NCBI GenBank assembly: GCA_017457015.1
Contig: JAFTIG010000017.1
Coordinates: 1-10,768 of the forward strand
Reading direction: 5' to 3'
Origin: Clostridia bacterium
GTDB lineage: Bacteria > Bacillota_A > Clostridia > Christensenellales > Borkfalkiaceae
DNA length: 10,768 nucleotides
Both the position numbers and the translations under genes were made by a program. The notes beneath the pieces were generated by a model. The model worked only from the letters and a program-made list of their open reading frames with translations. It was not told the DNA's origin and did not search any database. Positions 7,359 to 10,768 of this stretch are shown here, in pieces; position 1 is the stretch's first letter, and every line of letters begins with the position of its first letter.

Positions 7359-7711
7359 GGGGGCGATTCAGTTTCGATTGGGCGACCGAGAAAAGACGTA
7401 AGCATACCGAAGGCTCGACTTCGTAAAAACGGAACTTAAATTTAAATGCTAACAATAACGAAGTAGCATACGCTGCATAACTAAAGCGTACGTCTTACCT
7501 TTTCTCTCCCGTTGGAAGGGGATAAGGCGTCAATTAGACGGGGAACTGTTAATTTATTTTGATTGCGGTATATTAACGGAATTAAGTAATCTTGGGAACG
7601 TTAAAGGTCGCTGACGGCCGTGACTTTTCTGAAATTTAATCGTCGGATAAGTATGTAGAAGGTTTTTTTAAAGCGTTCAAGACTGGGGTGCAAATCCCCA
7701 CGTCTCCACCA
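7359..7711 (+). ncRNA. ssrA: Transfer-messenger RNA (tmRNA), one-piece
   Basis: Rescues stalled ribosomes with SmpB by acting first as an alanyl-tRNA and then as mRNA for a degradation tag. The 5' end GGGGGCGATTC is the classic tmRNA start. Its first seven bases (7359-7365) pair with CGTCTCC (7701-7707), followed by discriminator A and CCA (7708-7711). The T-arm is TGGGG/CCCCA (7684-7688, 7696-7700) with a TGCAAAT loop. The GCATACCGAAGG and ACTTCGTAAAAACGG blocks (about 7401-7433) correspond to conserved tmRNA sequence upstream of the tag. TAAGTATGTAG (about 7647-7657) matches the conserved 3' part. Its 353 bases are normal. The 3' end is shared with a minus-strand recombinase gene, but the mature RNA is complete. 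The gene follows smpB-metY-metA. Confidence 0.96.
7448..7480 (+). other. tmRNA tag reading frame (ANNNEVAYAA)
   Basis: Within ssrA, GCT at 7448 opens a frame of ten codons, Ala-Asn-Asn-Asn-Glu-Val-Ala-Tyr-Ala-Ala, ending with TAA at 7478. It lies after an A/T-rich stretch, as tag frames do, and ends in the Ala-Ala expected by ClpXP-type proteases. The resume codon GCT is inferred from the family pattern. Confidence 0.85.
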
Positions 7712-7740
7712 TAACAGGGGTATACGCACACCCCGTTGAA
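7677..7740. other. Probable left attachment junction (attL) of the integrated element
   Basis: The minus-strand recombinase frame runs without a break from element DNA into the last 35 bases of ssrA, placing a junction at or near the tmRNA 3' end. Directly beside it is a hairpin, AAC-A-GGGGT (7713-7721) with ACCCCGTT (7730-7737), that loosely echoes the tmRNA T-arm (GGGGTGCAAATCCCC). The exact crossover cannot be fixed without the right junction or an empty site. Confidence 0.6.
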
Positions 7741-9275
7741 AGAGAAATCGCATTTGCGGTTTCTTTTTCTTTTGCGCTGTTTTCCATTGCACCGCCGTTG
7801 CCGTCGGGATAATCGGGAAAAATCAAGTTCAAAAGTAATTCGTTCTTTTGCCCACCTTTCAAATTGAAAATCACTTTCATTTTATCGTCGTAAAGCAATA
7901 CGCGATAAATAAACGTGTCGATTAGGTCTTTGCGGTTTTTCGTCTTGGAATAGTCCAACGTTCTGAAATGTTGCAACCACTTGCGAATATCGGCGTATGT
8001 GTAATTGATTTGCAACGCCTTTTCGCTTTCTATGGTGTCTTGCAGTTCCTTGTTCTCGTTTTCAAGCCGTTCGATTTGCGACAAAATCGTGTCCGCGATT
8101 TTGCCAAGCATTAACGCTTGCATTAAGTTATTGATAGCCTTTTGATTTTCCGCGACCAAACTTTCAAGCCGTTTAATTTCGCCGTCGTTTTGCTCCGCTT
8201 GTATCAATAAATAGGTTTCCGCCGCAACCGTGTCTATAAATTCGTCGGTCAAAATGCCGTGTGGGTTTTCCTTTGTGCCGTTGCCAACAATGGCGCAAAT
8301 AATCTCGTCTTCGATAAACTGTTTGCGTATTGTTCGCTTGTCGCAAACGCCTTTCGCAACGCCTACGCATTTGTAATAATGGTGTATTTTTTTGCTTTTG
8401 CTCGTTGACGATATACCCGTCATTTTGCGCCCGCACTCGCCACAAATAAGTTTTTCCGACAAAATATATTCGACTTTTGCTTTGCCACGCGACGGGGCTT
8501 GCGCGTATTTCTCTAATACCTTTTGCACGTCGTTAAAAAGTTGCTCGTCAATCAGTTGTGGCATACCGCCGTCAATTTCTTCGCCGTGAAAAATGTATTT
8601 GCCTAAATACCGACGATTTGAAAACAATCCCCGAAAACTGTTTTTATTCCATTTGCCACCGCGCGCGGTGGGTATTCCGCGCTCGTTCATATAGCGCATT
8701 ATTTGCGCGTAATTGTAACCACTCGCCAACATTTGAAACAGTTGCTTAACGATGGGCGCGGTTTTTTCGTCCACGATAAAACTTTTGTCTTCGCTTACCT
8801 TATAGCCAAGCGGAACGCTCCCACCGAAAAATTTACATTTTGATGCGGAAACGGCAATACCGCGCTTGATTTTTTGAGATAATTCCGCGCTGTAATATTC
8901 CGCCATACTCTCTAAAACGCCTTCGATTAAAATACCGCTCGCGTCGTCCGTGATATTCTCTTTTGCCGACAATACGCGAACGCCGTTCTTTTTGAGTTTC
9001 GCTTTATACGTTGCGCTGTCGTAACGATTACGGGCGAAACGGTCTAATTGATAGACAATGACAAACTGAAAGCCCTTGCGCTTGCTGTCTTCAATCATTT
9101 GTAAAAAATCGGGGCGTTTGTCCGTCGTACCCGTCAAGGCTCGGTCTATGTATTCGTGAATAATGCGAAAGCCGTTGCGCTCCGCAAATGCGTAACACTC
9201 TTTAAGTTGACCTTCGATAGATTGCTCGTTTTGAGCGTGAGAACTGAAACGTGCATAAATAACTGCGTTTTTCAT
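7677..9275 (-). CDS. Large serine recombinase (site-specific integrase)
   Basis: Integrates and excises DNA at attachment sites by 2-bp staggered cuts. It has 532 residues. The N-terminal resolvase domain (about 1-145) has the catalytic YARFSS motif with nucleophile Ser11 and the QLDRFARNR motif (Arg79, Arg82). A recombinase DNA-binding domain spans about 150-265. A zinc ribbon follows, with Cys278, Cys281, Cys303 and Cys311, then a coiled coil (about 362-425) and a C-terminal segment. AAGGAG (9290-9285 on this strand) stands nine bases before the start. The last 11 codons (METWGFAPQS and stop) are antisense to ssrA, and about 20 codons before them lie over the ssrA terminator. The native C-terminus in the excised form is therefore probably different. 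Its ~230-base leader is strongly structured. Confidence 0.95.
   Translation of the reverse strand: MKNAVIYARFSSHAQNEQSIEGQLKECYAFAERNGFRIIHEYIDRALTGTTDKRPDFLQMIEDSKRKGFQFVIVYQLDRFARNRYDSATYKAKLKKNGVRVLSAKENITDDASGILIEGVLESMAEYYSAELSQKIKRGIAVSASKCKFFGGSVPLGYKVSEDKSFIVDEKTAPIVKQLFQMLASGYNYAQIMRYMNERGIPTARGGKWNKNSFRGLFSNRRYLGKYIFHGEEIDGGMPQLIDEQLFNDVQKVLEKYAQAPSRGKAKVEYILSEKLICGECGRKMTGISSTSKSKKIHHYYKCVGVAKGVCDKRTIRKQFIEDEIICAIVGNGTKENPHGILTDEFIDTVAAETYLLIQAEQNDGEIKRLESLVAENQKAINNLMQALMLGKIADTILSQIERLENENKELQDTIESEKALQINYTYADIRKWLQHFRTLDYSKTKNRKDLIDTFIYRVLLYDDKMKVIFNLKGGQKNELLLNLIFPDYPDGNGGAMENSAKEKETANAISLSTGCAYTPVMVETWGFAPQS
7743..7770 (+). terminator. Likely terminator for ssrA, inside the recombinase gene
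   Basis: AGAAATCGC (7743-7751) pairs with GCGGTTTCT (7756-7764) around ATTT, with one G-T pair, and TTTTCTTTT follows. It lies 31 bases past the tmRNA CCA end and within the antisense of the recombinase C-terminal codons. Confidence 0.65.
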
Positions 9276-9485: not shown

Positions 9486-9513
9486 AAAATATGAAAATAC
9501 TAACGCAATTATC

Positions 9514-9545
9514 ATTATAACAGCACTAAATAGCACTTATTTCAA
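9514..9545 (-). promoter_or_regulatory. Extended -10 promoter for the recombinase
   Basis: On the minus strand TGTTATAAT (9522-9514) is a perfect extended -10 box. TTGAAA (9545-9540) lies 20 bases upstream, too far for an ideal -35, so the TG motif would matter. Transcription would begin near 9507. Confidence 0.5.
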
Positions 9546-9600
9546 AGATATTTGTAGTTTTACACTTATTTTGTCGAAAATAAGTAAAAATCATTTACTT
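9522..9600. repeat. Cluster of short direct and inverted repeats between divergent promoters
   Basis: CACTTATTT occurs at 9534-9542 and 9563-9571, with a related AGCACTAAAT at 9522-9531. The second copy forms a perfect inverted repeat, ACTTATTTT (9564-9572) with AAAATAAGT (9577-9585). AAGTAAA (9582-9588) also pairs with TTTACTT (9594-9600). Lying between the recombinase promoter and the plus-strand leader promoter, they could be operator sites for an element-encoded regulator. Confidence 0.45.
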
Positions 9601-9618
9601 TTTGAACGCCATTTCTTA

Positions 9619-9647
9619 TTGACTTTCTTTTGTAAAATGCGTATAAT
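9619..9647 (+). promoter_or_regulatory. Promoter of the structured leader and SLOG operon
   Basis: TTGACT (9619-9624), a 17-base spacer and a perfect TATAAT (9642-9647). Transcription would start at about 9653-9655, exactly where the 14-bp closing stem of the leader RNA begins. Confidence 0.85.
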
Positions 9648-9653
9648 AGTAAA

Positions 9654-9810
9654 TGCGACATACTATTGAAAAGGAGATATTTTTCTAAAAAACCAACGTA
9701 TAATTTTATACTCTTAATGGGGATATAATACTTGATAGTATTATGTCCATTCGCGTTTACAACTTCCCTTTTAAGAGTATGTTGGTTTTAACGAAAAATA
9801 GTGTGTCGCA
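9654..9810 (+). ncRNA. Structured leader RNA domain, riboswitch-like, unrecognised class
   Basis: The first bases of the transcript, TGCGACATACTATT (9654-9667), pair with AATAGTGTGTCGCA (9797-9810) in a 14-bp helix with one G-T pair. Inside it, 9689-9697 pairs with 9781-9789 (AAAACCAAC type, 9 bp). ATACTCTTAA (9708-9717) pairs with TTAAGAGTAT (9771-9780). 9721-9732 pairs with 9737-9748 (12 bp, loop TGAT). The arms abut on the 3' side at 9780/9781 and leave a 10-base bulge on the 5' side. Unpaired stretches are 9668-9688 (containing AAGGAG) and 9749-9770. AAAAGG (9669-9674) could reach CCTTTT (9767-9772). I do not recognise it as a known class. It is followed at once by a terminator/antiterminator switch. 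Confidence 0.7.
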
Positions 9811-9816
9811 ACCTAA

Positions 9817-9851
9817 CGAAAGGATATATGCTATGGGTGTCGTTCCTTTCG
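9817..9851 (+). promoter_or_regulatory. Antiterminator hairpin competing with the leader terminator
   Basis: CGAAAGGA (9817-9824) pairs perfectly with TCCTTTCG (9844-9851). The 3' arm uses the bases that form the 5' arm and loop of the terminator (9837-9862), so the two cannot form together. The 5' arm is also the ribosome binding site of the leader peptide. CAACCTA (9809-9815) additionally pairs with TAGGTTG (9872-9878) and encloses the switch. Confidence 0.65.
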
Positions 9852-9871
9852 GGGAGCGGCACTTTTTTTAA
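9833..9871 (+). CDS. Leader peptide, 12 codons, overlapping the terminator
   Basis: A short frame coding MGVVPFGERHFF starts at 9833, eight bases after AAAGGA (9819-9824), and stops with TAA inside the terminator T-tract. An alternative frame from 9828 (26 codons, to 9908) starts too close to the same site. Because the frame spans the whole terminator, a ribosome on it would stop the hairpin from forming, as in ribosome-mediated attenuation. No matching protein family is known to me, and translation is unproven. Confidence 0.45.
   Translation: MGVVPFGERHFF
9837..9869 (+). terminator. Intrinsic terminator in the leader
   Basis: GTGTCGTTCC (9837-9846) pairs with GGAGCGGCAC (9853-9862) over ten base pairs, including two G-T pairs, around a TTTCGG loop. 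Seven T residues follow directly. This is a strong Rho-independent terminator 106 bases before the SLOG start, so it should act as an attenuator. Confidence 0.85.
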
Positions 9872-9912
9872 TAGGTTGTATATGTTATATTTAATAAAAA
9901 ATTTATAAGGAA

Positions 9913-10035
9913 ATGGCAAGCAAGAGAAAGACGGTTTTGTTTTTCTCTTGCTTGTTTGCTTTTATGGGTAAAATATGGACGGAAAAGTTTGTTGTTTTAT
10001 CGGGCATAGAAACGTTGAAAAAACGCCCGAATTAA
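9913..10035 (+). CDS. Possible 40-codon upstream ORF overlapping the SLOG start
   Basis: An ATG at 9913 opens a frame of 40 codons (begins MASKRKTVLFFSC) that crosses the SLOG start codon in another frame and ends at 10035. It has a basic start and a short hydrophobic stretch. AAGG (9907-9910) is closer than ideal. It might couple translation to the SLOG gene, which has almost no ribosome binding site. It may equally be a chance frame. Confidence 0.25.
   Translation: MASKRKTVLFFSCLFAFMGKIWTEKFVVLSGIETLKKRPN
9917..9954 (+). terminator. Second hairpin before the SLOG gene, possible weak terminator
   Basis: A perfect 13-bp stem, CAAGCAAGAGAAA (9917-9929) with TTTCTCTTGCTTG (9942-9954), has a 12-base loop and is followed by TTTGCTTTT. 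The T-tract is interrupted, so termination should be weak. It ends 20 bases before the SLOG start codon and may act on translation instead. Confidence 0.55.
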
Positions 10036-10484
10036 AAGAACGTTTAATAGATACGATTAGACGATTGATAACGGAAAACGGCGTAAACAAATTCTTGTTT
10101 GGCAGTAAAAGCCGTTTTGACGATTTATGTCAAGAAGTCGTCAAAGAACTACGGAAAGAATACCCCGACATTAAACGCGTTTACGTTCGTATGTATTATC
10201 CCGAACTTGGCGAGCCGTATATAGGTTATATTCTTCGTGATTTTGAAGATACCTATATGCCCGAACGGATAGAAAACGCAGGGGTAGCGCGTTACGTTGA
10301 ACGCAATCAAGAAATGATAAACGCAAGTGATTTTTGCGTGTTCTATTATAATGAAGAATACAAACCACCTTTAAGGAAACAATCACGTAGCGCATTATCC
10401 GCCTATCAGCCCAAAAGCGGAACACGGATCGCTTACGAATACGCAAAACAAAAGAAAAAAGATATAATCAATTTATATAGGTAA
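9975..10484 (+). CDS. SLOG/DUF1273-like Rossmann-fold protein, element cargo
   Basis: Small soluble protein of 169 residues. The N-terminal CCFIGHRN motif followed by a helix (residues 6-34), the FLFGSKSRFDDLC segment (about 41-53) and the C-terminal SGTRIAYEYAKQKKKDIINL stretch (about 147-166) are the pattern of SLOG-superfamily proteins related to YpsA/YspA. That superfamily is thought to bind nucleotides or nucleotide-derived signals, and some members serve in antiphage systems. The biochemical role of this branch is not known to me. There are no membrane segments. The start has only GGG (9966-9968) as a ribosome binding site. It lies downstream of the structured attenuator leader, and the next gene starts three bases after its stop, so the two are probably one operon. 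Confidence 0.75.
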   Translation: MDGKVCCFIGHRNVEKTPELKERLIDTIRRLITENGVNKFLFGSKSRFDDLCQEVVKELRKEYPDIKRVYVRMYYPELGEPYIGYILRDFEDTYMPERIENAGVARYVERNQEMINASDFCVFYYNEEYKPPLRKQSRSALSAYQPKSGTRIAYEYAKQKKKDIINLYR

Positions 10485-10487
10485 ATT

Positions 10488-10768
10488 ATGACGTTAAAAG
10501 AAAAAATAAAAGTCCGTCGTTTTGAACGGTATTGGAAAAAACAAGGTAGAAAAGATTTGTTTACTTGGGTACACCGTTATTTGCGGTTGCATAGCGAATT
10601 GCTTGCGGATAGCGTATATCAAGAAATGTTTGACTACCACCGCAACACCCTTATAGCATACGTTAAGCGCGACGTTAAAAGGAAAAATACGAGCGATAAA
10701 GAATACGGCGAACTCATAGACGTGCTTGCGGATATTTTCAATCGAAACGGGGCTGAACGAGTAAACAA
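10488..10768 (+). CDS. Unknown protein, N-terminal part (cut by window edge)
   Basis: The frame begins with ATG three bases after the SLOG stop, with AGG (10479-10481) six bases upstream, and stays open for 93 codons to the right edge. The visible part starts MTLKEKIKVRRFERYWKK and is rich in Lys and Arg. It has several aromatic residues (WVHRYLRLH, MFDYHRNTL) and looks helical, with no signal peptide or membrane segment. I do not recognise a family. The tight spacing implies co-expression with the SLOG gene. A nucleic-acid-binding role would be a guess from charge alone. Confidence 0.7.
   Translation, partial: MTLKEKIKVRRFERYWKKQGRKDLFTWVHRYLRLHSELLADSVYQEMFDYHRNTLIAYVKRDVKRKNTSDKEYGELIDVLADIFNRNGAERVN

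Follow-up and report, generated by a model that had tools for sequence, protein, structure and literature searches.

The leader and its genomic surroundings

The stretch of DNA analysed here, hereafter called the window, comprises 10,768 nucleotides of a contig from a bacterium of the Clostridia. Towards its end lies a gene for a SLOG-fold protein, which is followed by a small accessory ORF and preceded by a long leader with a promoter and an intrinsic terminator of its own. The features are listed in Table 1. Further upstream, the serine recombinase gene and the tmRNA gene lie on opposite strands and overlap at the 3′ end of the latter, an arrangement that is in line with a mobile element integrated at ssrA. 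The leader is presumed to be carried by such an element.

Table 1. Positions of the genes and of the leader components in the window.
Feature	Position	Strand	Basis or remark
tmRNA	7359..7711	opposite to the recombinase	Rfam
Serine recombinase	7677..9275	-	Pfam
Promoter: -35 TTGACT (9619-9624), 17-nt spacer, -10 TATAAT (9642-9647)	9619..9647	+	11 of 12 consensus positions
P1 5′ strand, presumed 5′ end of the transcript (partner 9797-9810, 14 bp)	9654..9667	+	Fold, conservation
P2 5′ strand 9689-9697 (partner 9781-9789) and P2′ 5′ strand 9708-9717 (partner 9771-9780)	9689..9717	+	MFE
P3 5′ arm (local hairpin with 9737-9748)	9721..9732	+	MFE, covariation, cognate test
Strand X: end of P3 loop, P3 3′ arm and start of joining strand	9735..9753	+	Alternative helix, covariation
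P1 3′ strand	9797..9810	+	Fold; conserved in relatives
Strand a′, partner of X; begins with the antiterminator 5′ arm (9817-9824)	9817..9834	+	Fold, covariation
Antiterminator, 8 bp	9817-9824/9844-9851	+	3′ arm lies inside the terminator region
Intrinsic terminator (9837-9846/9853-9862 and seven T)	9837..9869	+	Sequence, forced folding
Second terminator-like hairpin, between leader element and SLOG gene	9915..9956	+	Sequence scan
SLOG-fold gene, PF06908 (YpsA family)	9975..10484	+	Pfam E 6.3e-08, above the cut-off
Small accessory ORF, runs off the window	10488..10766	+	Similar ORFs directly behind the element at L088 and L168

Folding of the leader

The architecture given in the original prediction was confirmed. 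The near-consensus promoter lies where it had been placed, the first 14 bases of the presumed transcript pair with the predicted distant strand to close the domain (P1), and the three further nested helices appear in the minimum free energy (MFE) structure as P2, P2′ and P3. The coordinates of the mutually exclusive antiterminator and terminator were right as well, and forced folding separates the two states: the MFE structure, which holds the terminator, has an energy of -74.0 kcal/mol, compared to -68.2 kcal/mol when the antiterminator is forced, a cost of 5.8 kcal/mol. Shuffled versions of the leader reach -42.8 +/- 4.0 kcal/mol (z -7.76), with none of the 200 shuffles being equally stable. 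Both this folding and the covariation found in relatives of the leader, described below, are beyond chance.

One structural claim needs correction. The 22-base joining strand had been described as unpaired, but its first bases can, together with the P3 3′ arm, pair with 9817-9834. Strand X thus has two possible partners, the P3 5′ arm and strand a′, one excluding the other. These two partners resemble each other in sharing the motif GGATATA.

The window departs from the usual arrangement in the distance between the element and its gene: the SLOG gene starts 106 nt behind the element, compared to 20 nt usually, which counts against a reading as attenuator. The second terminator-like hairpin, which the original prediction did not mention, counts against it as well: with this hairpin in between, passing the first terminator may not be enough to reach the gene. 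The hairpin is possibly a second attenuator. A second strong hairpin between the element and the SLOG gene was also seen at L002 (3917-3997), L035 (2173-2240) and L057 (3903-3979); it is terminator-like in the window and of a GAGCCG type in the relatives.

Relatives of the leader

A protein search gave 1799 relatives of the SLOG protein, the best 120 of which were listed. Loci were then retrieved with an alignment of 32 sequences, and the best 80 of 210 from genomes were taken together with two viral ones; nearly all of the genome contigs among them are labelled metagenome-assembled. From the sequences upstream of the SLOG genes, leaders were chosen by eye for training two covariance models, R1 from 10 leaders including that of the window, and R2 from 13 that belong to two further sequence groups. 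Of the 82 loci, 24 have such a leader immediately in front of the SLOG gene. Eleven of these are matched by R1, nine of them from its training set, one (L001) cut by the contig end and one (L057) weak at 29 bits; the 13 matched by R2 are its entire training set. The remaining 58 loci gave no match to R1 or R2 in this position, although at two of these, L003 and L037, the element lies further up, beyond an opposite-strand HTH gene. The order of element, opposite-strand HTH-like gene and SLOG gene forms a second arrangement, found at L003, L037, L107 and L114.

Each model finds a member of the other's groups. R2, trained without window-type leaders, finds the window with 37.3 bits (E 2e-4), and R1, trained without the other groups, finds L053 with 35.5 bits (E 1.4e-4). 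By these cross-matches the RNA has a core that is conserved across lineages, as is expected of a riboswitch. The remaining cross-group matches have E values above 0.001 and some members are missed, which indicates that the R1 and R2 groups are distant from each other.

That the RNA class had not been recognized agrees with the Rfam 15 scans. In the window only the tmRNA was matched and the leader was not; 20 R1-type loci gave no match, and 20 R2-type loci gave a single tRNA outside the element. A permissive search of window positions 9500-10000 returned 15 matches, all below the gathering score, the best with E 0.04. Any Rfam 15 family, including the T-box family that this collection holds, can therefore be set aside as an identity of the leader, as no match reached the gathering score in the window and the loci of 40 relatives.

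A long-range helix that excludes both P3 and the antiterminator

RNAalifold, when run on alignments that had not been fitted to any model, picks the same long-range pairing between X and a′ in both groups. This pairing was absent from the original prediction. In the window the X:a′ helix (9735-9753/9817-9834) has 17 bp and an energy of -18.0 kcal/mol as a duplex. It excludes P3, because both use strand X, and it excludes the antiterminator, because both use 9817-9824.

Alignment A7 holds 105 R1 matches from 100 of the 102 loci of the family scan, among the matches listed. Across the X:a′ and terminator helices, 93.0% of 2826 cells are paired and 27 of the 28 pairs are changed on both sides (X:a′ 16/17, terminator 11/11), with none of 500 shuffles as high on any measure and slid versions reaching 26-54%. 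One of the 17 X:a′ pairs, at the inner end, is mostly unpaired. In alignment A8, composed of 87 R2 matches, 97.5% of the cells are paired and 15 of 19 pairs are changed on both sides, compared to 36-65% paired cells in slid controls. As the models to which A7, A8 and a further alignment, A6, were fitted include X:a′ and the terminator, the matches were selected for both helices. The alignments show that these predicted alternative helices are conserved.

Helices outside the search models and the transcription unit

For the other helices, a cognate test was used in which the duplex energy of an element's own strands is compared with that of strands taken from other elements. Among the 154 R1-type elements (one duplicate of 155 rows was dropped), the cognate pairing is better than the non-cognate mean for P1 in 145/149, P3 in 150/154, the antiterminator in 140/154, the joining strand with the antiterminator 5′ arm in 117/153 and P2 in 102/152, and control pairings score 85/153, 64/154 and 81/154. 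The 87 R2-type elements give 85/87 for P1, 65/84 for the antiterminator, 65/86 for P3 and 76/87 for P2, with controls at 37/85, 36/86 and 39/87. Elements with too little upstream sequence are omitted from the P1 tests, leaving 149 of 154 of the R1 type and 239 of 242 overall. The loss of the closing helix in homologues had been named in advance as the result that would overturn the proposed structure; P1 is instead preserved in nearly all members of both types. Two results for the R2 group count against a reading as attenuator: the pairing of the joining strand with the antiterminator arm is weak (46/82), and P3 is weaker than X:a′. On A6, P3 is paired in 82.2% of the cells and double-changed in 8 of its 12 pairs, a number reached by 16 of 500 shuffles, for column pairs that were picked on the same alignment.

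P1 can also be read from the -10 box. At least five contiguous pairs are then found in 181/242 elements, being the best of several registers, with pairs 1-5 paired by construction and no shuffle control; the fourth pair is G-C in 57, C-G in 49, U-A in 37 and A-U in 32 elements. In 188/239 elements (43/49, 77/104 and 68/86 by group) a -10 hexamer with at least five of six matches precedes the P1 5′ strand by 4-6 nt, again a count without shuffle control. This spacing suggests that the 5′ end of the RNA would be locked in P1. At the other end, a run of at least four T closes 234/242 elements. The core of the R1 type further comprises a TCG in the joining strand (89-97% per position), a GG in the P3 loop (90-100%) and GCARC-like bases at the end of P1 and behind it.

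The attenuator layout of the original prediction is upheld by the fold and the covariation, but the version of it in which a ribosome would be sensed is not. For such a mechanism one can point to the ATG codons in the window behind an AAAGGA site, from which a leader peptide, either MGVVPFGERHFF (9833-9871) or MLWVSF... (from 9828), would be read across the terminator. A Shine–Dalgarno-like start with an ORF of at least eight codons in the switch region is found in 10/242 elements, a conserved leader-peptide frame over the switch thus being absent; eight peptides that were compared all differ, and a degenerate DNA pattern for the peptide has no match in viral contigs. Ribosome-mediated attenuation was therefore rejected as highly improbable.

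Control by an antisense RNA can be given about as little credence. Antisense-RNA-controlled attenuators are known from the replication control of pT181 and pIP501, and an attenuator with long hairpins in a mobile element would suit such a scheme. Promoter-like sites on the opposite strand are nonetheless not in excess, as they occur in 10/242 elements by a consensus scan, compared to 16.5 expected from shuffles, and this candidate was rejected as well.

Distribution and copy number

R1 matches 18 of the 24 genomes that had yielded loci. In the family of G001 it is found in at least 80 of 201 genomes, with up to 11 copies as a lower bound, and a search centred on G019 likewise gives at least 80/201, in nearly the same genomes. 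Among the genomes sampled across the class it matches at least 10/291. R2 has matches in 18 of 20 genomes in the family of G013, where copy numbers reach 28, in at least 76/291 of the genomes sampled class-wide and in at least 1/249 in a phylum-wide draw, the one being the centre genome itself. The family, class and phylum counts (80/201, 10/291, 76/291 and 1/249) were obtained with stricter filters, with no more than 10-15 candidates scored in each genome, and are lower bounds. At least two copies are found on one strand at 16 loci. Three or four tandem copies lie at one place at L191 (399-1421), L113 (2193-2804) and L292 (389-984).

In viral sequences, the R2 element is present in 6 of the 11 stretches that hold an 18-base pattern, corresponding by eye to three distinct sequences, and the R1 DNA pattern had no match in viral contigs. 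Searches by DNA similarity of the window leader and of L053 against plasmids, and of L018 against phages, gave no match. The SLOG protein of the window has one distant record among phages, and a viral scan with this single protein found no relative.

Genes behind the element

Gene calls behind the elements are mechanical ORFs with loose Shine–Dalgarno patterns. In 128/239 elements a start codon with a Shine–Dalgarno-like site lies within 130 nt, at a median distance of 20 nt, and in another 49/239 there is a start without such a site. These calls, together with the -10 boxes, show the gene contexts and the position of the putative promoter.

Classified by simple motifs, the genes behind 179 elements encode lipoprotein-like proteins in 46 cases, SLOG proteins in 44 (including the 24 loci chosen for SLOG), other secreted-like proteins in 23, SAP/Rho-like proteins in 6, zinc-ribbon proteins in 4 and others in 56. 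A Pfam scan of 123 of the 178 distinct downstream proteins, cut at 350 aa, gave BspA-type LRR in 32, YpsA in 10, CotH, SLH, copper-amine-oxidase N-terminal and TIR domains in 2 each, and GmrSD and trypsin-like in 1 each; many SLOG proteins were left out of this set, and its ratio of LRR to SLOG is not representative. One family of targets recurs at L147, L152, L153, L183, L189, L095 and L113; its proteins are about 140-170 aa long and share a conserved LRxYG...GAPxKN motif.

In the family scan, which was genome-wide although its model was trained on SLOG leaders, SLOG genes account for 14/84 of the genes behind elements. As PF06908 genes number 1-3 per genome in 15 genomes, SLOG is an enriched but not a defining target. 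Regulation of SLOG genes only was therefore rejected, given that lipoproteins, BspA-type LRR, CotH, SLH, TIR, zinc-ribbon and small uncharacterized proteins follow the element as well. A signal shared with the ligand of the SLOG protein, as originally suggested, is likewise not supported, as the same RNA precedes many types of protein and also stands alone.

Copies without a gene

By the mechanical test, 62 of the 239-241 elements, about a quarter, have no gene start behind them; in genome G506, 19/28 copies have none within 130 nt. These copies keep the -10 box (55/62, compared to 129/141 in gene-linked copies, p=0.60) and P1, with similar medians and rank tests at p 0.27-0.81 by group. Their antiterminators, in contrast, are weaker by 2.2 kcal/mol than those of copies with a gene start within 45 nt (p=1.5e-4; 124 gene-linked and 62 stand-alone copies, stratified by group and without training copies), and in the same stratified test no difference is seen for the terminator (p 0.68), X:a′ (p 0.52) and P3 (p 0.75). 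By group, the antiterminator difference has p 0.23 in A6, which is not significant, 0.011 in A7 and 0.0023 in A8 without training copies; within the family of G013 it has p=0.003. The stratified test is used instead of a pooled one (p=4e-6), as the latter is confounded by group composition, and the comparison of gene-linked with stand-alone copies omits 36 of the 241 copies, classed as 'far' or 'short'.

A stronger antiterminator in gene-linked copies is what a read-through switch predicts, and the contrast fits an antiterminator that would be kept for read-through only where a gene follows. The stand-alone copies also mean that read-through control cannot be the whole function. That they keep the body of the RNA says that this body would have a use of its own. 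The best reading is that the same RNA class also exists as a stand-alone RNA.

The element behaves as a module relative to its flanks. In 19 of the 40 element pairs with the highest similarity (81-97% identity), a count made by hand, both flanks fall in the unrelated range, taking as limits the 95th percentiles among random pairs, 0.62 for upstream and 0.63 for downstream flanks. In the viral loci L347 and L351, 2 kb of upstream sequence is identical and the element is 96% identical, but the gene next to the terminator is a different one. L347 and L349, compared with L351, show an exchange of genes at the edge of the terminator.

From these data one could argue that the element is primarily a stand-alone non-coding RNA, a unit running from its own promoter to its own terminator whose product would act in trans or bind a protein, and that the gene-linked copies use the same promoter and merely leak through the terminator. 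The -10 box and P1 kept without a gene, the loci with several copies on one strand, the mostly geneless copies of G506 and the similar elements in unrelated flanks favor this explanation, and the many gene starts close behind the element and the better-kept antiterminator where a gene follows oppose it; on balance it is rather unlikely. Much further down in probability, and hardly credible, is a chance or decaying intergenic repeat that would be functionless and merely carry a promoter and terminator. Its many copies and their similarity across unrelated flanks would be expected of a repeat, but the compensatory changes in P1, P3, X:a′, the antiterminator and the terminator would not, nor would the dependence of antiterminator retention on context.

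A proposed model of strand exchange

The interpretation that we consider probable, though by no means certain, is that the leader belongs to a new class of transcription attenuator that works by strand exchange. The RNA probably decides on transcription of the gene behind it. RNA polymerase would start at P1, the P1 5′ strand being the 5′ end of the RNA, and P1, P2 and P3 would fold first. As long as X stays in the P3 hairpin, the 5′ part of a′ could join the antiterminator and transcription would continue. If a′ invades P3 from the P3 loop, the X:a′ pseudoknot helix would form and use up the antiterminator 5′ arm, upon which the adjoining terminator could form and transcription would stop. 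The chain of mutually exclusive pairings from the P3 arm over X and a′ to the terminator arm suggests a toehold-like exchange that begins in the P3 loop. A factor binding to the conserved region of P1, P3 and the joining strand would set the balance between the two states. We infer that the antiterminated state is the ON state, that switching occurs in vivo and that all copies respond to a common signal. Small molecules or proteins seem to be likelier candidates for this signal than a tRNA, the ribosome or an antisense RNA.

A stricter version of the attenuator model would make the element a riboswitch in the narrow sense, in which a metabolite or second messenger binds the core of P1, P3 and the joining strand and directly picks the state. 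Judged from sequence, the element is indeed a structured 5′ UTR RNA with alternative states of its platform, albeit with the quarter of copies that stand alone, and its conserved R1-type core, its expression platform, the tandem copies and the wide range of its targets, surface-related as well as nucleotide-related, agree with a riboswitch. This version is nevertheless doubtful: no single pathway points to a ligand, stand-alone copies exist, and the conserved paired bases of P1 could equally mark a protein site.

On a wider scale, a possible but tentative picture is that of a large undescribed RNA network in the Clostridia, with up to 28 copies per genome that are each their own transcription unit. 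It would comprise stand-alone RNAs that do not need the antiterminator, as well as switches before accessory genes such as those for surface LRR lipoproteins, SLOG and TIR proteins. A single signal would be read throughout, with stand-alone copies perhaps acting as decoys for it, and the module would be re-used with each new accessory gene. With its presence in about a quarter of the sampled genomes of the class, often in multiple covarying copies and without an Rfam entry, the RNA would rank among the more abundant undescribed cis-regulatory RNAs known, and surface and SLOG/TIR-type genes may answer to one common signal. The three-way strand exchange lends itself to direct in vitro testing, and the contrast between gene-linked and stand-alone copies offers a natural experiment on why an antiterminator is kept.

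Comparison with known systems

T-box leaders carry a long structured domain near the transcript start, choose between an antiterminator and a terminator and occur in many copies per genome. All these traits are shared by the RNA described here. Unlike T-box leaders, it has no T-box match in Rfam (window and 40 loci), its downstream genes include no aminoacyl-tRNA or amino-acid gene family among 25 of the 39 downstream Pfam families, and the strand corresponding to the antiterminator loop pairs with the RNA's own P3 strand.

Type III toxin-antitoxin systems of the ToxI type combine their own promoter, a pseudoknotted RNA, an attenuating terminator and a gene, often on mobile DNA. The promoter, the pseudoknotted RNA, the terminator before the gene and the mobile DNA are found here too, but the RNA forms units of about 200 nt, each with its own promoter, rather than a short tandem repeat, and the downstream proteins are diverse. 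The candidate was rejected, as no toxin family is present among 25 of the 39 Pfam families (123/178 downstream proteins).

Among described candidates, the SLH riboswitch candidate lies upstream of surface-protein genes and also occurs in Clostridia; in passages of its source, 80 examples are given, also from Synergistaceae and Negativicutes, about 60% of them before SLH genes (PMC6429828). Surface-protein targets are common to both RNAs, SLH domains being present in 2/123 downstream proteins here. Other targets dominate here, however, and the phylum-wide draw matched the centre genome only. Compared by the text description (PMC6429828), the two could overlap. The class could also overlap with the 3161 candidate RNAs of the human microbiome, 508 of which lie directly upstream of genes, as the comparison is with the main text only (PMC8040213); DUF1273 is absent from this main text, and such an architecture is not described in the main-text parts covered. 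More generally, the element is not described in the literature searched, including passages of PMC8632094 and PMC2864571, with supplements and most subscription papers outside the scope; absence from print is not claimed.

Close parallels are also found in the fluoride and ZTP riboswitches, which terminate transcription and make use of a pseudoknot and strand exchange, as described in passages of two papers (PMC11077080; PMC10085676). As far as those passages go, they resemble the RNA of the window in that a structured domain at the 5′ end is combined with a terminator platform and strand exchange leads to folds that exclude each other. In contrast to them, this RNA has no Rfam match, many stand-alone copies and a broad range of accessory targets; its domain is closed from the presumed first base, and its exchange helix is long, 17 bp in the window and by eye up to about 22 bp.
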